From NCBI RefSeq assembly GCF_031181705.1, contig NZ_JAPSKN010000003.1, forward strand, positions 1-64,000: DNA of 64,000 bases, given 5' to 3'. Numbering within the stretch: the first letter of the stretch is position 1; each line of letters begins with the position of its first letter. Below, in pieces: positions 398 through 11,514 of the stretch. Under the pieces are notes generated by a model. The model was not told where the DNA came from. It searched no databases and saw only the letters and a program-made list of their open reading frames with translations. This DNA is from Streptomyces sp. (lineage in GTDB: Bacteria; Actinomycetota; Actinomycetes; Streptomycetales; Streptomycetaceae). Position numbers and translations under genes: made by a program.

Positions 398-1744
398 ATG
401 AAGATCAGCAATCGCAGAAGCAGGCGCGCCGCCACGGCCGTCGCCCTGGGGGCCGTACTCGCGCTGACCGCGACCGCCTGCGGCGACGACGGCAGCGGGG
501 CGGGCGGCGACAAGGGCGCCGAGGGAAGCGGCAAGGGCAAGATCGTCTTCTGGGACAACAACGGCGGTGTCCGCACCGAGATCTGGAAGGAGATCATCGC
601 CGACTTCGAGAAGGCCAACCCGGACATCGACGTCGAGTACGTCGGGATCGCCTCGACCGAGTACCAGTCGAAGGTCGACACCGCCCTCCAGGGCGGCGGC
701 CTGCCGGACGTCGGCGGCGTGGGATCGGCGATGATCGCCGGGTTCGCCGCGCAGGGCGCGCTGGAGCCGCTCGACGAGCGGCTGGCCGAGTCGTCCCTGG
801 AGGGCAAGCTCAACAAGGACATGGTCGAGTCGCTGAAGGCGGCCGGCGGCGACGACAAGCTGTACTCGATCCCGACCTCCGCGAACAACGGTGTGCTGTA
901 CTACCGCACCGACCTGTTCAAGAAGGCCGGGCTGCAGGAGCCCACGACCTGGGACCGGTTCTACGAGGCCGCGGAAAAGCTGACGAACAAGGGCAGGAAC
1001 GAGTTCGGCTACACCATCCGCGGGGGCGCCGGCTCCATCGCCCAGGCACTGGACGCGATGTACGGGCAGTCCGGGATCACGTCGTTCTGGGACTCCAGCG
1101 GTGAGAAGACCACGCTCAACGACCCGAAGAACGTCGAGGCGCTGGAGAAGTACGCGGCGCTGTACAAGAAGGTCACGCCGGCCGCCGACCTCAACAACGA
1201 CTTCACGAAGATGGTCGCCCAGTGGGACTCCGGCACCATCGGGATGCTGAACCACAACCTCGGGTCGTACCAGGACCACGTGAAGGCGCTCGGGGTCGAC
1301 AAGTTCCGCGGCATCCCGCAGCCGACCGGGCCCGGTGGCAAGCGGGTGCAGGTGTCCAACCCGGTGGACGGGCTGGGGCTGTTCAAGAGCGGCAAGAACA
1401 AGGAAGCCGCCTGGAAGTTCATCGAGTTCGCCACCTCCGAGGCGGAGAACTCGAAGTTCAACGAGGCGGCGGGGCAGGTGCCCTCGAACACCGACGCGGC
1501 GCAGGACGAGTGGATCTCGAAGGCGGAGCCGACGAAGCTGGCCGCGGGCGCGTTGTCGGACGGTTCCACGACGATCGTGCAGCTGCCGTACTACCTGCCG
1601 GACTGGAACACGATCTCCAAGGCCGACAACGAGCCGAACTTCCAGAAGGTGCTGCTCGGGAAGATGAGCGCGAAGGACTTCCTGGACACGATGGCGGAGC
1701 AGCTGAACACCGCGCGAGAGGAGTGGAACCAGCAGAACGGGTGA
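398..1744 (+). CDS. extracellular solute-binding lipoprotein of a sugar ABC transporter
   Basis: The protein has 448 residues, with an Arg-rich n-region, a hydrophobic stretch and a lipobox-like ATAC motif whose Cys (about residue 28) would be lipidated, followed by a Gly/Asp-rich linker. The mature part (GKIVFWDNNGG..., then EIIADFEKANPDIDVEYVG) is a family 1 (MalE-like) binding protein. Such proteins capture oligosaccharides outside the membrane for an ABC importer. The neighbours suggest pectin- or rhamnogalacturonan-derived oligosaccharides, which is inference. A purine-rich AGAAGAAGAGAG sequence precedes the ATG. Unusually, no permease genes follow; they may lie upstream of the window, be encoded elsewhere, or be lost together with the decayed neighbour. 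Confidence 0.88.
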   Translation: MKISNRRSRRAATAVALGAVLALTATACGDDGSGAGGDKGAEGSGKGKIVFWDNNGGVRTEIWKEIIADFEKANPDIDVEYVGIASTEYQSKVDTALQGGGLPDVGGVGSAMIAGFAAQGALEPLDERLAESSLEGKLNKDMVESLKAAGGDDKLYSIPTSANNGVLYYRTDLFKKAGLQEPTTWDRFYEAAEKLTNKGRNEFGYTIRGGAGSIAQALDAMYGQSGITSFWDSSGEKTTLNDPKNVEALEKYAALYKKVTPAADLNNDFTKMVAQWDSGTIGMLNHNLGSYQDHVKALGVDKFRGIPQPTGPGGKRVQVSNPVDGLGLFKSGKNKEAAWKFIEFATSEAENSKFNEAAGQVPSNTDAAQDEWISKAEPTKLAAGALSDGSTTIVQLPYYLPDWNTISKADNEPNFQKVLLGKMSAKDFLDTMAEQLNTAREEWNQQNG

Positions 1745-1832: not shown

Positions 1833-1865
1833 AACACACCATCCGCTGTCCGGAAGGAACTCCGC

Positions 1866-2660
1866 GTGTCTCTGAGCCGTAGACAAGTGGCTGCCGTGGG
1901 AATGGCCGCTGTCCCTCTCGCGCTGTCCCTCGGCGGGACCGCGCACGCCGGTGACCGTCGCCGCACTCTCCACATCGCCGGTGATTCCACCGCCGCCCAG
2001 AAGTACGCCGACGCCGCGCCCGAGACCGGGTGGGCGATGGCGCTGCCGTTCTTCCTCCGCAAGGACCTGGCCGTCGCCAATCACGCGGTCAACGGCCGGA
2101 GTTCGAAGTCCTTCGTCGACGAGGGGCGGCTCGATGCCGTCCTGTCCGTGATACGGCCCGGGGACGTCCTCCTCGTCCAGTTCGGGCACAACGACGCGAA
2201 GGCGGAGGATCCCGCCCGTCATACCGAGCCCTGGTCGACGTATCAGGACTATCTGCGGCGGTACGTCGACGGGGCCCGGGCCCGTGGGGCGCGGCCGGTG
2301 CTCGCCACGTCCGTGGAGCGGCGCCGGTTCGACGCGAGCGGCAAGGCCCTGCCGACGCACGGGGAGTACCCGGCGGCCATGCGGGCGCTCGCCGCCGAGG
2401 AGGGAGTCGCGCTGCTCGACCTCCAGGCGCTCTCGCTCGCCCTCTGGCAGGAGCTGGGGCCCGAGGAGACGAAGAAGTACTTCAACTGGACCGCCACCGA
2501 GCAGGACAACACGCACTTCAACCCGCCGGGTGCCATCGCCGTGGCCCGGCTCGTGGCACGGGAGTCGCTGCAGCGCCGGGTGCTCGGCCCGCGGGACGTG
2601 CGGCGGCTGGACGAGCCGGTCCCCGAGTCCTGGATCGGCTGGCCGCAGGCCACCTCGTAA
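1866..2660 (+). CDS. secreted rhamnogalacturonan acetylesterase (SGNH/GDSL hydrolase)
   Basis: The protein has 264 residues from a GTG preceded by GGAAGGA; a longer in-frame extension has no ribosome site. An export signal ends near the AHA at about residue 23. The catalytic Ser is in the block I motif GDST (Ser41). Block II is VNGRSS, block III is FGHND, and the Asp-His pair is in DNTHFNPPG (Asp214, His217). The family removes acetyl groups from the rhamnogalacturonan backbone of pectin so that lyases can cut it. It is followed 31 bp later by the pectate lyase gene, probably in one transcript. The family call is secure; the exact substrate is inferred from the neighbours. Confidence 0.88.
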   Translation: MSLSRRQVAAVGMAAVPLALSLGGTAHAGDRRRTLHIAGDSTAAQKYADAAPETGWAMALPFFLRKDLAVANHAVNGRSSKSFVDEGRLDAVLSVIRPGDVLLVQFGHNDAKAEDPARHTEPWSTYQDYLRRYVDGARARGARPVLATSVERRRFDASGKALPTHGEYPAAMRALAAEEGVALLDLQALSLALWQELGPEETKKYFNWTATEQDNTHFNPPGAIAVARLVARESLQRRVLGPRDVRRLDEPVPESWIGWPQATS

Positions 2661-2691: not shown

Positions 2692-4002
2692 ATGAACGTT
2701 CGCAAGTGTCATGATCATGCCATTGGGAGAGCGGTGGTGCTGGCCGGCTGCACCGCGCTCGTCCTCGCCCTCACCGGCACCGGTGCCCAGGCCGGGCCCC
2801 GGGACGCGACCCGCCAGACCCTGGCCGCCGGAGACGGCTGGGGCTCGTACGGCACGGGCACCACGGGCGGGGCCGCCGCCGACGCCGCGCACGTCTACAC
2901 CGTCACCACCTGGGAACAGTTCCGGGCCGCCCTGGAGGACGGCGGGACGGCGCCCCGGATCATCAAGGTGAAGGGGATGATCGACGCCGTCTCCGAGGGC
3001 TGCGACGCGTTCGCGGCCGAGGGGTACGACCTGCAGAAGTACCTCGCCGCCTACGACCCCGCCGTCTGGGGCCACGACCGGCCGGTCAGCGGTGAGCAGG
3101 AGGAGCTGCGGGCCGCGTCCGCGGCCAACCAGGACAAGGCCATCAAGGCGAACGTGCCCGCCGACACCACGATCATCGGCGTCGGCAGGGGCGCGGGCAT
3201 CCTCGGCGGCAGCCTGCAGATCAAGGGCGTCGACAACGTCATCGTCCGCAACCTGACCTTCGAGGCGCCGGTCGACTGCTTCCCGCAGTGGGACCCGACC
3301 GACGACAACAGGACCGGCGCCTGGAACTCCGAGTACGACGGCGTGGTCGTCCACGGGTCGACCCATGTGTGGATCGACCACAACACGCTCACCGACGGCC
3401 GCCACCCGGACAGTTCGCTGCCGACGTACTTCGGCAAGACCTACCAGCAGCACGACGGGCTGCTCGACGTCGTGCGGGGCTCCAACCACGTGACGGTGTC
3501 CTGGAACTCGTTCCGGGACCACGACAAGACCATGCTGATCGGCAACAGCGACAGCGCCACCGCCGACGACACGGGCAAGCTGAAGGTCACCCTGCACCAC
3601 AACCGCTTCGAGGGCATCGTCGAGCGGGCGCCCCGGGTGCGCTTCGGGCAGGTCGACTCGTACAACAACCACTTCGTGGTCACCAAGAATCAGAAGTGGG
3701 GTTACGTCTACGGCGTCGGCAAGGAGTCCCGGCTCGTCGCCGAGCACAACGCCTTCACGCTGGCGAAGGGCCTCAGCCCGGCGAAGATCCTCAAGAAGTG
3801 GAGCGAGGCGCCGGTCACCGCGAACGCCAACGTCGTCAACGGCAGGCCCGTCGACCTGATCGCCGTGCACAACGCGGAGATCCCCGGCGAGACGCTCCAG
3901 TCGGGCGCCGGCTGGACGCCGACGCTGCGGACCCGGATCGACCCCGCGAAGGCCGTGCCCGGCATCGTCGACGCCCGGGCGGGCGCCGGACGCGTGTGCT
4001 GA
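2692..4002 (+). CDS. secreted pectate lyase, polysaccharide lyase family 1
   Basis: The protein has 436 residues from an ATG with GGAAGAG upstream, and a Sec signal peptide probably cleaved after AQA (about residue 34). The parallel beta-helix core shows the PL1 hallmarks: the WIDHNTLTDG motif (from Trp227) with the calcium-binding aspartate region around DGLLDVVRG, and RAPRVRFG (Arg312-Arg317), which supplies the catalytic Arg in this family. It would cleave de-esterified polygalacturonan outside the cell by calcium-dependent beta-elimination. It sits between the acetylesterase and pectinesterase genes. Deacetylation and demethylation by these neighbours create its substrate. Confidence 0.92.
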   Translation: MNVRKCHDHAIGRAVVLAGCTALVLALTGTGAQAGPRDATRQTLAAGDGWGSYGTGTTGGAAADAAHVYTVTTWEQFRAALEDGGTAPRIIKVKGMIDAVSEGCDAFAAEGYDLQKYLAAYDPAVWGHDRPVSGEQEELRAASAANQDKAIKANVPADTTIIGVGRGAGILGGSLQIKGVDNVIVRNLTFEAPVDCFPQWDPTDDNRTGAWNSEYDGVVVHGSTHVWIDHNTLTDGRHPDSSLPTYFGKTYQQHDGLLDVVRGSNHVTVSWNSFRDHDKTMLIGNSDSATADDTGKLKVTLHHNRFEGIVERAPRVRFGQVDSYNNHFVVTKNQKWGYVYGVGKESRLVAEHNAFTLAKGLSPAKILKKWSEAPVTANANVVNGRPVDLIAVHNAEIPGETLQSGAGWTPTLRTRIDPAKAVPGIVDARAGAGRVC

Positions 4003-4100: not shown

Positions 4101-5228
4101 ATGCCCGCGCAGCCCCACCGTTCCGTCTCCCGCCGGGGGTTCCTCGCCGCGGGCGCCGCGGCAGGCGCCGCCCTCGGCCTCGCGCCCGGGCCCGCGCGGG
4201 CCGCCGCGCGTCCGCGCCCGTTCGGCCGGTACGGCTCACCGGCCGCCCGCCGGGACCCCCGGACCCTGTACGTCCACCCCGGCGGCGCCGGTGACGTCAC
4301 CACCGTCCGGGACGCCGTGACCGCCGCGAACGGCCCCGGGTACACCCTGGTCATCGCCCCGGGCGTCTACCGGCAGACGGTCTCCGTCGACCCGGCCCGC
4401 ACCGGCATGACCTGGATCGGCGCGAGCGAGGACCCGCGGGACGTGGTGATCGTGTACGACAACGCGGCGGGGACGCCCAAGCCGGGCGGCGGCACCTACG
4501 GCACCAGCGGTTCCGCCACCGCCACCGTCCAGGCCGACGGGTTCACCGCCCGCTGGATCACCTTCGCCAACGACTGGCTGCGCGCCGGCCACCCCGGCGT
4601 CACCGGCACGCAGGCCGTCGCCCTCAAGGTCCAGGGCGACCGGTCGGCCTTCCACCACTGCCGGTTCCTCGGGCACCAGGACACCCTGTACGCCGACTCC
4701 ACGGCCCTCGGCGCCTTCGCCCGCCAGTACTTCGCCCACTGCTACGCCGAGGGGGACGTCGACTTCGTCTTCGGGCGGGCGACGGCCGTGTTCGAGCGGT
4801 GCCACTTCCGGACGCTGTCGCGGACCGACCTGTCCGGCGCCCCGTACGGGTTCGTGTTCGCGCCGTCGACCGCCGGGGCCAACCCGCTCGGCTACCTCGT
4901 CACCCGCAGCCGCGTCAGCAGCGAGGCACCGGACGGCTTCTACAAGCTGGCCCGGCCCTGGGTGCCCAGCTCCGACCTCACCGCCCGGCCCATGCTCACC
5001 GTCCGGGACACCTGGCTCGGCCCGGGCATCGACGCGGTCGCCCCGTACGCCGACATGCGCGCGGCCCACCCCTGGCAGAGCATGCGGTTCGCCGAGTACC
5101 GCAACACCGGCCCGGGCGCGAAGGTGACCGTCCCCGAGAACCGGCCCCAACTCACGGACGAACAGGCCCGGTCCGCGACCCGCGCCGCCCACCTCGGCGA
5201 CTGGGAGCCGTGGAAGGAGAACTGCTGA
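4101..5228 (+). CDS. secreted pectinesterase (carbohydrate esterase family 8)
   Basis: The protein has 375 residues from an ATG 98 bp after the lyase gene. The N-terminus (SRRGFLAAG followed by an Ala-rich h-region ending ARA) is a twin-arginine-type signal. The CE8 active site is complete: GHQDTLY (Gln193, Asp194), DFVFG (nucleophile Asp221) and LARPW (Arg285). The enzyme hydrolyses methyl esters of homogalacturonan, giving substrate for the two pectate lyases in the window. Unlike the remnant at 1-344 it has every catalytic residue. Its length fits bacterial exported CE8 enzymes. Confidence 0.93.
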   Translation: MPAQPHRSVSRRGFLAAGAAAGAALGLAPGPARAAARPRPFGRYGSPAARRDPRTLYVHPGGAGDVTTVRDAVTAANGPGYTLVIAPGVYRQTVSVDPARTGMTWIGASEDPRDVVIVYDNAAGTPKPGGGTYGTSGSATATVQADGFTARWITFANDWLRAGHPGVTGTQAVALKVQGDRSAFHHCRFLGHQDTLYADSTALGAFARQYFAHCYAEGDVDFVFGRATAVFERCHFRTLSRTDLSGAPYGFVFAPSTAGANPLGYLVTRSRVSSEAPDGFYKLARPWVPSSDLTARPMLTVRDTWLGPGIDAVAPYADMRAAHPWQSMRFAEYRNTGPGAKVTVPENRPQLTDEQARSATRAAHLGDWEPWKENC

Positions 5229-5248
5229 GCGGGGCGGAGGCGGGGGTC

Positions 5249-6307
5249 GTGGACGGTCCGCTGCCCGGCTTCCACCCGGCGCTGAAGGACGCCCTGACCT
5301 TCCCGCTCGCCTGGGGCCGGTCCCCGGTCCGCGACGCCCCGGCCTGGCGGAAGACCGCCCGGGCGGCCGTCGAGCGGCACCTGCTCGTCGAGCGGCAGGA
5401 CGGGGTGCCGTTCGCGCCGGAGTTCACCGGCCGCGTCCCGGGCGGGGGGTACGACCGGGAACTGGTGACCGTCTCCCTCACCCGCTACGCACCGGTGCGC
5501 GGCGCCCTGCTCACCCCGCACGGCCGCGGCCCCTTCCCGGCCGTGCTGCTCCTGCACGACCACGGCTCCCGCTTCGACATCGGCAAGGAGAAGCTCGTCC
5601 GCCCCTGGTACGACGACACCCGCCTCGCCTCCGCCACCGCCTGGGCGGACCGCTGCTACGGGGGGCGGTTCGTCGGCGACGAACTGGCCCGGCGGGGGCA
5701 TGTGGTGCTGTGCCTGGACGCGCTCGGCTGGGGCGACCGCGGGCCCCTCGCCTACGAGCAGCAGCAGGCGCTGGCGGCCGGCTTCTTCCACCTCGGCTCC
5801 TCGCTCGCCGGTCTCATGGCCCGGGAGGACGAACGGGCCGCCGCCTTCCTGGCGGGACTCGACCGGGTCGACGCCCGGCGGGTCGCGGCCGTCGGCTTCT
5901 CCATGGGCGCCTACCGGGCCTGGCAGGCCGCCGCCCTCAGCGACCACGTGGCGGCCGCCGCGAGCGTCTGCTGGATGACCGGGCTCAAGGAGATGATGGT
6001 GCCCGGCAACAACACCCTGCGCGGGCAGTCCGCGTACTGCATGCTCCACCCCGGGCTCGCCCGGCACCTCGACCTGCCGGACGTGGCGAGCATCGCCGCG
6101 CCCAAGCCGGCGCTGTTCTTCCACGGCGGCCTGGACCCGCTGTTCCCGGCCGAGGGCGTGCGGGTCGCGTACGACAAGCTGCGTGCCGTGTGGCGTGCGC
6201 GGAACGCCGAGGACCGGATACGGGTGAAGACGTGGCCGGAGCTGGGCCACGTCTTCACCGCCCCGCTGCAGGACGAGGTCTTCAGCTGGCTCGACGACGT
6301 CCTGTGA
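5249..6307 (+). CDS. alpha/beta hydrolase, dienelactone-hydrolase/acetylxylan-esterase type
   Basis: The protein has 352 residues from a GTG preceded by GGCGGAGGCGG. No signal peptide is seen, so it is probably cytoplasmic. The frame stays open upstream into the pectinesterase gene, so the start is uncertain. The nucleophile is in GFSMGAY, the acid in HGGLDPLFP, and the His in ELGHVFTAP near the C-terminus. The order and spacing match the dienelactone hydrolase superfamily, which includes esterases acting on acylated sugars. Its place 20 bp after the pectinesterase gene suggests it de-esterifies imported pectin oligosaccharides, which is inference. It converges on the GH43 gene with a 3-bp gap between stops. 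Confidence 0.75.
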   Translation: MDGPLPGFHPALKDALTFPLAWGRSPVRDAPAWRKTARAAVERHLLVERQDGVPFAPEFTGRVPGGGYDRELVTVSLTRYAPVRGALLTPHGRGPFPAVLLLHDHGSRFDIGKEKLVRPWYDDTRLASATAWADRCYGGRFVGDELARRGHVVLCLDALGWGDRGPLAYEQQQALAAGFFHLGSSLAGLMAREDERAAAFLAGLDRVDARRVAAVGFSMGAYRAWQAAALSDHVAAAASVCWMTGLKEMMVPGNNTLRGQSAYCMLHPGLARHLDLPDVASIAAPKPALFFHGGLDPLFPAEGVRVAYDKLRAVWRARNAEDRIRVKTWPELGHVFTAPLQDEVFSWLDDVL

Positions 6308-8885: not shown

Positions 8886-9719
8886 CTACTGGTAACTGAT
8901 GTCCGAGGCCTTGAACTTGCAGGTCTTGCCGTCCGGGCCGGCCGGCTTCAGCTCCGTGGGCTCCTTGCCCGTGTTGTTGCCCTCGAAGCGCACACAGGTC
9001 TTGATCTTCTTCTTGCTGTCGCCGTGGATGCGGATCCGCGACAGCGTGGCCGTGTCACCGTAGTTGGCGTTCACCCCGACGATCGAGTTCATCGGCGCCG
9101 TCACGTCGATGTCGTCCAGCACGATCGTGCGCTTGTACTGCGTCTTGCAGTTGCCGCAGGAGCGGACCAGCTTGCCGGCGTCCTGCACCTGGAAGCCCGA
9201 GACGCTCAGCGTGCCGGCGCCGTTGAACTGCAGCACCTTGTCGTCGGCGTTCCTCGCACCGCCGCCGATCACCTTGTACACCGCCGAGGAGGACTTGCCC
9301 TTGAAGCTGGCCGCGTCCTCGCCGACGTCCGTCCACCACACGTTCTGCAGCGTGCAACTGCCCTTGCAGTGCACGCCGTCGGCGGCCGGGGTGCCGATGA
9401 TGACGTTCTTCAGCACCGCGCCGTCGGCGAGCTCGAAGAGGGGGTCCTGGCCCTCGTCCTGGCTGTCGCCGCCGAGCGCGCCGGTGCCGTAGAACATCTT
9501 CATCCCGCCGTCGCGGACACCGGAGACCGCGATGGTCTTCGACACGGGCGTCTTGCCCTTGTCCGTGGGCCAGGAGGACGCGGCGCCCGCCGTCGACAGC
9601 ATCGACGTCGTGATGACCGCCGCTCCGGTGATGCCCAACGCCGACACCCCGGCGATCACCGCCCGCCGCTTGGTGACCCGGCGGCGGTGGCGGACGCGCT
9701 GTTCTGCTGGTGCAGTCAT
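8886..9719 (-). CDS. secreted pectate lyase, polysaccharide lyase family 3
   Basis: The protein has 277 residues from an ATG preceded by GAGGAA; the open frame continues upstream without a ribosome site. An Arg-rich n-region (RVRHRRRVTKRR) leads into a hydrophobic signal. The mature part is a short PL3 beta-helix with the signature DGVHCKGSCTLQNVWW, then TDVGEDAASFKG. Paired cysteines (CKGSC, CGNC) probably form disulphides. PL3 enzymes cut polygalacturonate by calcium-dependent beta-elimination, so this is a second lyase of different fold-family detail from the PL1 enzyme at 2692-4002. It is transcribed separately from the 398-6307 group and ends at its own hairpin. Confidence 0.9.
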   Translation of the reverse strand: MTAPAEQRVRHRRRVTKRRAVIAGVSALGITGAAVITTSMLSTAGAASSWPTDKGKTPVSKTIAVSGVRDGGMKMFYGTGALGGDSQDEGQDPLFELADGAVLKNVIIGTPAADGVHCKGSCTLQNVWWTDVGEDAASFKGKSSSAVYKVIGGGARNADDKVLQFNGAGTLSVSGFQVQDAGKLVRSCGNCKTQYKRTIVLDDIDVTAPMNSIVGVNANYGDTATLSRIRIHGDSKKKIKTCVRFEGNNTGKEPTELKPAGPDGKTCKFKASDISYQ

Positions 9720-9804
9720 GTACCGATTCCTCAGATGGGTGGTGACTCTTGCGCGAAGTGGTCGCCACCGGTGAGGAAAGGGTTGCCGCGTCTTCCGGTT
9801 TTTT

Positions 9805-10650
9805 TCACGAGTCGCCCTCGCCGCCGCCCACGGCGGCGAAACCACCGCCGACCGACAGCTGCCGGGAACCGGTCGCAGCCGTCACCGAGTAGCGGTCCGC
9901 GCCCGCGTCCCGGCCCCCGCGGTCGTGGTCGTACTGCCCGGCGAACACCCACTCGCCCGCCGGGACCGTACGGCCCTCCCTGAGCGTCCAGGTGTAGACG
10001 AGGAAGCCGTCCTCCTCGGCGACCGTGAGCGTGAAGTCGCCCTCGGGCAGGGTGCGCCAGGCGCCCGTCTCGGAGACACCGCCGGTCTGCGCGATCCGCA
10101 ACCGCACGGTCAGCGCGGTCAGTTGCTCGCGGTTCTTGAGGGTGACATTGCTCTGCGCCCAGAAGTCGTTGCTGTGCGGGTCGACCGAGCCGTCCGACCA
10201 CACCGGCCCGTCCTCGGTCGCGGCCGGCGTCCGCTGCGGGGCGGAAGGGCTCGGCGGGCGCGAGGGCGGCGGGCTCGGCCGCCGCTCCTCGGGCGAGCTG
10301 CTCGGCGCGGGGTCCACCGGCGGTGCGGGCGCCCGGCTCGTCGCCCGCGGCGACGGGGTGGGCGTCGGTGACGTCGCCACCTCCCGCTGCTCTGGGGCGG
10401 CCTCCTCCTTCACCGCGGACGCGACCGCGTACCCGCCCACCGCCAGCACCCCCGCCACCGCGGCCGTCGCGCCCGCCACCCGCAGCCAGCCGACCACCGG
10501 CGGACGCGTCGCCCGATGGCCGGAAGCGGCCGGACCGGTCATCCCGCGCTCGATCCGGGCCAGGATCCGCTCCCGGTCCGGCTCGTGGCTCCCGGCCGCC
10601 TCGTGCAGCCGGGCGCGCAGCTCCTCGTGCACGTCCCGCCGCATCGTCAT
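9805..10650 (-). CDS. membrane-anchored protein with extracellular domain, coupled to sigma factor gene
   Basis: The protein has 281 residues; its ATG overlaps the sigma factor stop (ATGA), so the two are translationally coupled. The order is: cytoplasmic N-terminus of about 50 residues (MRRDVHEELRARLHEAAG...), one membrane segment (about 53-75, VAGATAAVAGVLAVGGYAVA), a Pro/Ser/Thr-rich spacer (about 88-145) and a C-terminal beta-rich domain of about 130 residues. That domain (FWAQSNVTLKNREQLTALTV...) has alternating hydrophobic strands like a carbohydrate-binding or fibronectin-like sandwich. No zinc-finger HxxxCxxC motif is seen. The topology fits a membrane regulator of the neighbouring sigma factor that senses something outside the cell. 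This is inference; the family is not recognised. Confidence 0.65.
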   Translation of the reverse strand: MTMRRDVHEELRARLHEAAGSHEPDRERILARIERGMTGPAASGHRATRPPVVGWLRVAGATAAVAGVLAVGGYAVASAVKEEAAPEQREVATSPTPTPSPRATSRAPAPPVDPAPSSSPEERRPSPPPSRPPSPSAPQRTPAATEDGPVWSDGSVDPHSNDFWAQSNVTLKNREQLTALTVRLRIAQTGGVSETGAWRTLPEGDFTLTVAEEDGFLVYTWTLREGRTVPAGEWVFAGQYDHDRGGRDAGADRYSVTAATGSRQLSVGGGFAAVGGGEGDS

Positions 10651-11246
10651 CGGTCCCTTCCTCCGCCCTCACCGGTGCGCAAGCCTTCCACGGCGGGTGA
10701 GCAGCGGGGAGCGCCCAGCGCCGCGTGCATCCGCTGCGGCACCCCCTGCGTACCCAGCAGCCGCTGGAGTTCGGCCATCCCCTTCGAGGTCTGGCTCTTC
10801 ACCGTACCCACCGAGACGCCGAGGGCGAGCGCGGTGTCCTTCTCCGAGAGGTCGAAGGCGTGCCGCAGCACCACACAGGCCCGTTTGCGGAACGGCAGCC
10901 TGCGCAGGGCCTCCCGGACGTCGACGACGCCCGCGACGTCGGGGTTCTCGGTCCGCTCCTCGCGCTGCGACCAGAACAGCGCGACGCGCCGCCGTTCGCG
11001 CACCGCGCTGCGGATGCGGGTACGGGCCAGGTTGGCCACCACCCCGCGCGCGTACGCCGCCGGATGGTCGGCCGCGCGCACCCGGTCCCAGCGGTGCCAC
11101 AGCGCCAGCAACGCGTCCGCCGCCAGGTCGTCGGCGGTGTCCGGTTCGCCCGTCAGCAGGAAGGCCAGCCGGGACAGTTCGGCGTAGTGGCGCTCGAAGA
11201 AGGCGTGGAACTCCACGGAGGCGGCGTCGTCGACGACTGTGCCCAC
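10647..11246 (-). CDS. SigE-family RNA polymerase sigma factor (ECF type)
   Basis: The protein has 199 residues from a GTG with GGAGAGG six bases upstream. Region 2 is FHAFFERHYAELSRLAFLL followed by AADALLALWHRWDRV. Region 4 is REALRRLPFRKRACVVLRHAF, then the helix-turn-helix with ALALGVSVGTVKSQTSKGM. This is the SigE-like ECF group common in actinobacteria. It directs polymerase to its own promoter set. The coupled membrane protein is the likely partner. Whether it controls the adjacent pectate lyase gene or an envelope response cannot be told from sequence. Confidence 0.85.
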   Translation of the reverse strand: MGTVVDDAASVEFHAFFERHYAELSRLAFLLTGEPDTADDLAADALLALWHRWDRVRAADHPAAYARGVVANLARTRIRSAVRERRRVALFWSQREERTENPDVAGVVDVREALRRLPFRKRACVVLRHAFDLSEKDTALALGVSVGTVKSQTSKGMAELQRLLGTQGVPQRMHAALGAPRCSPAVEGLRTGEGGGRDR

Positions 11247-11301: not shown

Positions 11302-11317
11302 TGTCATGTAGATGACA
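11302..11317. promoter_or_regulatory. inverted repeat upstream of sigma factor gene
   Basis: TGTCATGTAGATGACA is a 6+4+6 perfect inverted repeat about 56 bp upstream of the sigma factor start, in the 268-bp divergent region shared with the purine permease gene. It may be an operator; the binding protein is unknown. Confidence 0.35.
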
Positions 11318-11514
11318 TGTGGTCATCCGGAGGGGACCGGACGAGATCCGGAAGCGTAGCAGCGATCCCGGGATGGTTCGTACGGAGCTTCGAACGGCGT
11401 GTGGCGGGCCGAACTCTGATTCCGTAACACGGAGAAAACCCGAACCGGGTTCAGCACGGGCACAATCCGGCCAGCATCCGCACACAGATCACCCGGCACC
11501 GAGGAGCACGCACG

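Follow-up and report, generated by a model that had tools for sequence, protein, structure and literature searches.

Zinc-type (ZAS) anti-sigma factors carry an HxxxCxxC motif in the cytoplasmic domain, and RsgI proteins are membrane anti-sigma proteins that present an outer, polysaccharide-facing domain. In Clostridium thermocellum, the text available to us describes such an outer-domain membrane protein (RsgI) together with a sigma factor (SigI) for plant-wall enzyme genes (PMC10766802). A similar set of parts was described in actinobacteria for ECF52 (SCO4117), in which a sigma factor, a membrane span, a proline-rich outer stretch and a carbohydrate-type outer domain are joined in one fused protein with a zinc finger; according to the accessible part of the report, SCO4117 controls differentiation and secondary metabolism (PMC5826349). 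The RsbN protein of the Streptomyces BldN/RsbN pair is a membrane-anchored anti-sigma factor that was assigned, in the accessible text of two reports, to a new structural class, ASDIII (PMC8103513, PMC7406223). Finally, sigma-E of Streptomyces coelicolor uses promoters such as GGCAACC-N16-CGTC, with N17 in some; its −10 sequence is mostly CGTC and about half of its targets are envelope genes (PMC6767563, as far as available to us).

The window, i.e., the whole stretch of 64,000 nucleotides analysed here, is the first 64 kb of its contig in a Streptomyces genome (G000; 5.8 Mb, 247 contigs, about 81% complete). It contains an ECF sigma factor gene followed by a gene for a membrane protein, termed RSX, and we consider it likely that sigma factor and membrane anti-sigma factor together form a switch by which Streptomyces controls the breakdown of plant cell walls.

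Organization of the locus

On the minus strand the sigma gene is followed by RSX, a pectate lyase of family PL3 and a two-domain GH43 protein, and the plus strand of the cluster encodes a solute-binding protein, a GDSL esterase, a PL1 pectate lyase, a pectinesterase and an alpha/beta hydrolase:

10647..11246, minus strand: ECF sigma factor, TIGR02983 (SigE-fam_strep), 199 aa, GTG start (NCBIfam and Pfam)
9805..10650, minus strand: RSX, single-span membrane protein, 281 aa, proposed anti-sigma factor and sensor
8886..9719, minus strand: pectate lyase PL3 (PF03211, E 1.2e-77), proposed main target in this genome
6311..8530, minus strand: secreted two-domain GH43 protein (Pfam), exact start uncertain
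398..1744, plus strand: ABC solute-binding protein (PF01547)
1860..2660, plus strand: GDSL esterase
2692..4002, plus strand: pectate lyase PL1 (PF00544), start codon uncertain
4101..5228, plus strand: pectinesterase (PF01095)
5246..6307, plus strand: alpha/beta hydrolase (DLH-like)

The initial annotation had placed a sigma gene and a membrane protein gene beside pectate lyase genes, and this picture holds: PL3 adjoins RSX, with GH43, PL1 and the pectinesterase beyond it. The GH43 gene may possibly be read through from PL3 upstream of it, and the GDSL esterase is possibly rhamnogalacturonan acetylesterase-like in function.

The sigma factor is a member of the TIGR02983 SigE-type ECF sigma factors, in agreement with its earlier naming as an ECF factor. 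It matches TIGR02983 above the curated cut-off (E 4.3e-51, 173 bits against 141.55), and both Pfam regions 2 and 4 (Sigma70_r2 and r4_2) are recognized. TIGR02983 is also the best NCBIfam match and, with TIGR02937, the sole one above cut-off among the 25 of 73 families listed; in this the factor differs from its clostridial analogues, which belong to the SigI family. The GC3 values of the two genes (0.905 and 0.94) are those of coding sequence. The two genes overlap by 4 bp (ATGA), as had been noted before, and the overlap is kept in all 78 measurable loci among 83 related ones (the in-frame start codon nearest the sigma stop was taken as the RSX start; of the other five loci, four are cut at contig ends and one has a broken frame). 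From gene order and numbering, SCO1876 is presumably the S. coelicolor counterpart of the sigma gene. The accessible text of two papers mentions SCO1876 once each, in the legend of a microarray figure and within a network model of germination, with no function given there (PMC2631018, PMC3902916).

At L103:341-1495 (minus strand) the window's genome holds a second TIGR02983 sigma gene with a 4-bp overlap to a 384-aa partner that lacks a Pfam match. The two pairs seem to share their architecture and to differ in the outer part; the 384-aa partner was considered as RsbN or as DUF4232-like, and neither reading could be confirmed.

Structure of RSX

Four parts can be distinguished in RSX, all on the minus strand:

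10540..10650, minus strand: residues 1-37, conserved cytoplasmic segment ELRARLHEAA.xHEPDRxRILARVERGM, proposed to bind the sigma factor
10411..10497, minus strand: residues 52-80, single hydrophobic span, seen in the sequence (the model has low confidence here and shows no helix)
10213..10410, minus strand: residues 81-146, Pro/Ser-rich linker by composition (20 Pro and 10 Ser per 66 residues)
9808..10209, minus strand: residues 148-281, outer beta-sandwich domain (predicted fold)

Among relatives, conservation is strong in residues 6-37 and across the outer domain but not in the linker. The full-length model (pLDDT 55 overall) places two N-terminal helices at residues 5-19 and 26-36, with low confidence (pLDDT about 50-56). 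The RSX of the window contains no Cys, and neither CxxC nor HxxxCxxC occurs in the first 90 residues of any of the 78 partners measured. The single span, the Pro/Ser spacer and the missing zinc motif that the initial annotation described are thus all borne out, and by its motif content RSX does not appear to be a zinc-type (ZAS) anti-sigma factor. In ECF52 sigma factor and zinc finger are parts of a single polypeptide; here the functions are divided between two genes. The RsbN class has a helical, zinc-free N-terminal domain for sigma binding. With RsbN, RSX has membrane anchoring in common, and apart from this the two predicted helices, modelled at low confidence, gave no convincing sequence match in the PDB.

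Does RSX hold the sigma factor at all? It could instead be a polysaccharide-binding surface protein that is merely co-expressed with it and has no anti-sigma activity. The inner segment is short (about 50 residues) and matched no known anti-sigma domain; a comparison with PDB sequences and with the L103 partner yielded nothing convincing, a Pfam search with the whole of RSX gave no family at E 1 or below, and its NCBIfam matches lie far below cut-off. Yet the inner segment is strongly conserved, and the overlapping, sigma-first order recurs in every measurable locus, which makes a mere surface protein improbable, and an anti-sigma role of RSX is the reading followed below. The best PDB match to the whole protein in a phmmer search, the amylase chain 2c3v (a CBM25; E 0.17), was absent when the domain profile was used.

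The outer domain had been noted as beta-rich, and AlphaFold2, run on a 34-sequence alignment, predicts an eight-stranded beta-sandwich (mean pLDDT 80, pTM 0.76), of which the first 14 residues are conserved yet modelled with low confidence. The best Foldseek matches, tied near E 1e-3 with TM below 0.5, were mu-adaptin, CBM3, adhesins, pilins, cohesin and CBM2. The CBM3 match (E 1.3e-3, TM 0.36) is tied with mu-adaptin and adhesins, and the RsgI-like CBM3 4b9c takes rank 26. With VIA-align the 50 matches listed, mostly pilins, adhesins and mu-adaptin, span Z 8.7 to 10.1, and in the fold search no match stands well above unrelated ones. Most of these folds belong to one broad SCOP fold (b.2), which includes cellulose-binding domains as well as protein-binding adhesins. 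The fold comparison that had been proposed therefore bears out a beta-sandwich, but its likeness to carbohydrate-binding modules is weak and equalled by adhesins, pilins and mu-adaptin. Since the fold is common to both kinds of domain, carbohydrate binding is allowed, not proven, and as judged from the model we regard it as plausible. Against the Pfam CBM families, none of 37 outer domains gave a match at E up to 10, in a search where HMMER filters drop most weak matches. By sequence, an assignment to CBM2 was rejected, as hhalign, run with six of the ten CBM2 matches of the same genome, gave E 0.24 over 12 columns and showed no homology.

The initial annotation had likened the pair to SigI/RsgI. 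As possible working logic the likeness is fair, but a search for features of the SigI and RsgI families found none: RSX has no RsgI family match in Pfam or NCBIfam, its stalk is rich in Pro and Ser, and no separate autoproteolytic domain is seen. By analogy, the arrangement would work like SigI/RsgI, and by the features tested it is not a member of that family.

Linkage to plant cell wall genes

Relatives were collected by scanning one genome per species (84,980 species) with the outer domain, which gave 229; the best 80, all labelled Streptomyces, were kept and three plasmid loci were added, to give 83 loci. Since only the best 80 of 229 were used, distant pairs in other settings may be missed. 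The sigma gene precedes RSX in 76 of the 80 genome loci, and the other four contigs begin inside RSX. At least one of PL3, PL1, pectinesterase and GH43 was found by tblastn in 79 of the 80, and in the exception (L084) a homologue of PL4 lies next to RSX (PL4 by Pfam on L050), so that all of these best 80 loci have a pectin-type gene nearby, as the expected co-occurrence with lyase genes would have it. PL3 itself is present in 62. In the 18 loci that lack it, RSX is followed by PL4 in three (L050, L055, L084), by a PL1-pectinesterase fusion in one (L059) and by GH43 in two (L058, L071); in the remaining 12 the next predicted gene is oppositely oriented. In one locus as deposited (L038:183-1481) the RSX outer domain runs in frame into PL3 with no stop between, which is either an assembly error or a real fusion.

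As the loci were found via the pair, much of this linkage is shared descent, and because descent of the whole gene block could explain it, loci with other surroundings were examined. A neighbouring permease gene is missing from 22 loci, in six of them through a contig end, and the other 16 all have pectin-type genes. Six of these 16 loci have neither the permease nor the neighbouring penicillin-binding protein (PBP) gene (L048, L059, L061, L079, L081, L083), and pectin-type genes are kept in all six. In the three plasmid loci an expansin gene lies directly upstream of the pair; in two it is annotated, and in the third tblastn located it. Two of these loci also encode a protein with ricin-type lectin and BNR repeats, which may be GH74-like by its repeats. 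Five further pairs, with RSX 46-51% identical, came with the promoter search described below: two stand beside GH12, one has a GH10 xylanase and the remnant of an expansin gene (38 residues, 68%) for neighbours, and two lie behind expansin remnants that were read by eye. The suggested link to plant polysaccharide is strongly supported by the 80 genome loci, by these eight more distant pairs, with their expansin genes or remnants, GH12, GH10 and GH74-like neighbours, and by the promoter-like element described next.

A shared promoter-like element

Between RSX and PL3 lies a short sequence that is conserved over the PL3 loci:

9761..9787, minus strand: promoter-like element GGCAACCCTTTCCTCACCGGTGGCGAC, 41 bp upstream of the PL3 start codon and proposed to be read by the sigma factor

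Its consensus is GGCAACC-N16/17-CRAC, and sites of this form are also present ahead of PL4, the PL1-pectinesterase fusion and expansin. Searched with a looser pattern, the 83 loci yielded 165 hits and the reversed sequence two; 104 of the 165 lie away from marker genes, some at further lyase genes and many in coding sequence. A stricter pattern gave 104 sites in the window and the 83 loci (84 sequences, 1.63 Mb) and none in either reversed or complemented sequence, though it was drawn from the same 83 loci, with CRAC and the spacing range built in. Of these sites, 95 have a predicted gene downstream: PL3 in 51, PL9-like in 36 (named by Pfam on the homologues L037 and L144), PL4 in three, the ricin/BNR protein in two, PL1-pectinesterase in one, and two frames taken as spurious. 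The element ends 25-101 bp before the predicted start codon in 90 of the 95. Among the nine sites that lack a predicted gene, one belongs to the L002 expansin, 118 bp further on, and the L003 expansin has a near variant that the pattern missed. All but one of the 104 sites have a spacing of 16 or 17 (the exception has 15), and the −10 is CGAC or CAAC.

Strict sites occur in 69 of the 80 genome loci. Four of the other 11 show a near variant in place (L018, L035, L039, L046); in the remaining seven, including the PL3-bearing L014, no element was found just after RSX. In the window's own genome a slightly different strict pattern gave one exact site, before PL3. The element is also kept after the RSX stop in L064, L167, L223 and L079, where PL3 is not in the slot (L167 is on the same contig as L037, and L223 on that of L059).

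Across 150 Streptomyces genomes the pattern was found at least 325 times in at least 113 genomes, against 42 for the reversed pattern. Among the sites listed we examined 110 distinct ones, from 30 returned loci and 80 chosen regions, the latter mostly GGCAACCYTT sites with 10 others, a choice that favours the strong form; the count over the 83 loci had included 15 of them. At 56 of the 110 sites a plant-wall gene follows, and nine kinds of such genes are represented; 43 of the 56 are new to this set and 13 were counted before. The genes are PL3 (17), PL1 or PL1-pectinesterase (15), PL9-like (10), PL11 (6), expansin, GH12 and PL4 (2 each), GH10 (1) and GH62 (1, with its predicted start 213 bp away). 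The families were named by Pfam on one member per cluster and, for PL3, on the window protein. As most of these families have no relation to one another, simple inheritance does not account for the element they share. No gene was assigned to 24 sites. Another 22, of similar sequence (GGCAACCTTCACGCCGTCGGCGGCGAC and variants, in L150, L160, L206 and others), are antisense in long coding frames and were counted as background; they probably reflect one conserved gene and chance. Three more, in L139, L158 and L202, directly precede the gene for one unnamed protein family, about 460 aa in length; Pfam and PDB searches with the L158 protein gave nothing at E 1 or below, and the family is a candidate new plant-wall protein.

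Five of the 110 sites lead into the sigma operon. A clean element directly before the sigma gene occurs in G036 and G048 alone; in L184, L215 and L226 an apparent decayed expansin gene lies between the two, clearly so in L184 and as judged by eye in L215 and L226, and the site seems to be that gene's former promoter, now leading into the operon. Autoregulation as a general rule was rejected, as no element was found upstream of the sigma gene in the window's clade.

Which protein, then, reads the element? The GGCAACC of its −35 is that of sigma-E, and with CRAC at −10 the element fits well with a sigma-E paralogue of changed −10 preference, which the sigma factor of the pair may be. We take sigma-E to belong to the same NCBIfam subfamily, and in the window's genome, where six TIGR02983 genes exceed the cut-off, two loci that adjoin response regulators (L101, L102) are presumably sigE-like. 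The element could be the property of another factor of this family, e.g., sigma-E, and the pair a mere neighbour. The −35 and the N16/17 spacing are common to sigma-E promoters, and the class B PBP gene sco1875 of S. coelicolor, probably the counterpart of the PBP gene beside the pair, is a sigma-E target in the accessible text (PMC6767563). Such ownership is nevertheless unlikely: sigma-E sites mostly have CGTC at −10 (same source, available part), but the element has CGAC or CAAC (a pattern that itself fixes CRAC), it accompanies the pair into plasmid loci, and it directly precedes the sigma gene in the two genomes named above. The element can also be read as an imperfect GGCRAC direct repeat about 21 bp apart, with perfect GGCAAC repeats at several sites, and for this reason the site of a DNA-binding regulator stands as a rival. 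We give it a small chance, since sites differ by one base in their spacing, just as sigma-E promoters do, the distance to the start codon is as confined as described, and in an unsystematic look no regulator common to the loci was noticed besides the pair. A promoter read by the sigma factor of the pair is the interpretation we retain.

Upstream region of the sigma operon

Two conserved features lie ahead of the sigma gene:

11302..11317, no strand assigned: palindrome TGTCAT-N4-ATGACA, upstream of the sigma operon, proposed operator
11345..11362, minus strand: conserved CTGCTACGCTTCCGGATC, which includes a TACGCT box and may be a housekeeping-type promoter for the sigma operon

The TACGCT box is presumably a −10 box. 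A second copy of the palindrome, with one mismatch, lies at 2707-2722, at the 5′ end of PL1, and these two are the only copies in the window with at most two mismatches (0.38 expected). When no more than one mismatch is allowed, 53 copies lie in the 83 loci (1.57 Mb), namely 48 before the sigma gene, four at PL1 and one elsewhere, and the window's genome has seven such places, two of them in this cluster (sigma gene and PL1). This distribution suggests that another regulator probably ties the sigma operon and PL1 together.

A proposed model of plant cell wall sensing

In the model that we favour, RSX would reside in the membrane and hold the sigma factor by its short, zinc-free, two-helix inner segment, and the outer beta-sandwich, raised on the Pro/Ser stalk, would meet a cue from the plant wall. 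The cue would most likely be a pectic or other wall polysaccharide or a fragment of one, which would relax or destroy RSX and so free the sigma factor. The freed factor would then read GGCAACC-N16/17-CRAC and bring about the expression of secreted lyases, hydrolases and expansins; its exact site would be the one before PL3 in this genome and, in related genomes, those before other plant-wall genes and, in some, the sigma operon. As the same element precedes many unrelated plant-wall genes in relatives, the switch probably turns on wall-degrading enzymes. In the window's clade the TACGCT box and, at most loci, the palindrome suggest a second layer of control by another regulator. The initial annotation named wall state as an alternative cue; RSX would then monitor the wall of the bacterium itself, and the lyases would be a side branch. 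This reading has one neighbour in its favour, the PBP gene (matched in 67 of the 80 genome loci), whose probable counterpart sco1875 is vancomycin-induced in the accessible text (PMC6767563), but it is very improbable, as the six loci that lack PBP and permease, with sufficient upstream DNA, keep their pectin-type genes and none of the element targets that could be assigned was a gene of wall synthesis.

Concluding remarks

Streptomyces are major soil degraders and plant associates, and in our judgement it is poorly understood how they detect plant-wall polymers that are too large to enter the cell. No plant-wall sigma regulon of this kind was found in the literature searched, which leaves most subscription papers outside; the element, the list of genes behind it and the proposed regulon are the new part, and the main value of the finding is that this regulon is specific and testable. 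A named candidate sensor, a named sigma factor, an explicit promoter-like sequence and a list of putative targets open every link of the chain to experiment. RSX also offers, in its outer domain, a candidate new family of carbohydrate-binding domains, and the element a way to predict functions of the unnamed secreted proteins that carry it.

One may ask how far this reaches. Tentatively, and with the balance somewhat against it, the sigma factor may govern a genus-wide regulon against plant walls, with the RSX outer domain as a new family of carbohydrate-binding sensors and with two differently tuned clades. If this is true, one clade would be tuned to pectin (PL3, PL9, PL4) and the other to the hemicellulose/cellulose network (expansin, GH12, GH10, GH74-like), and the element would make the regulon readable from sequence alone.
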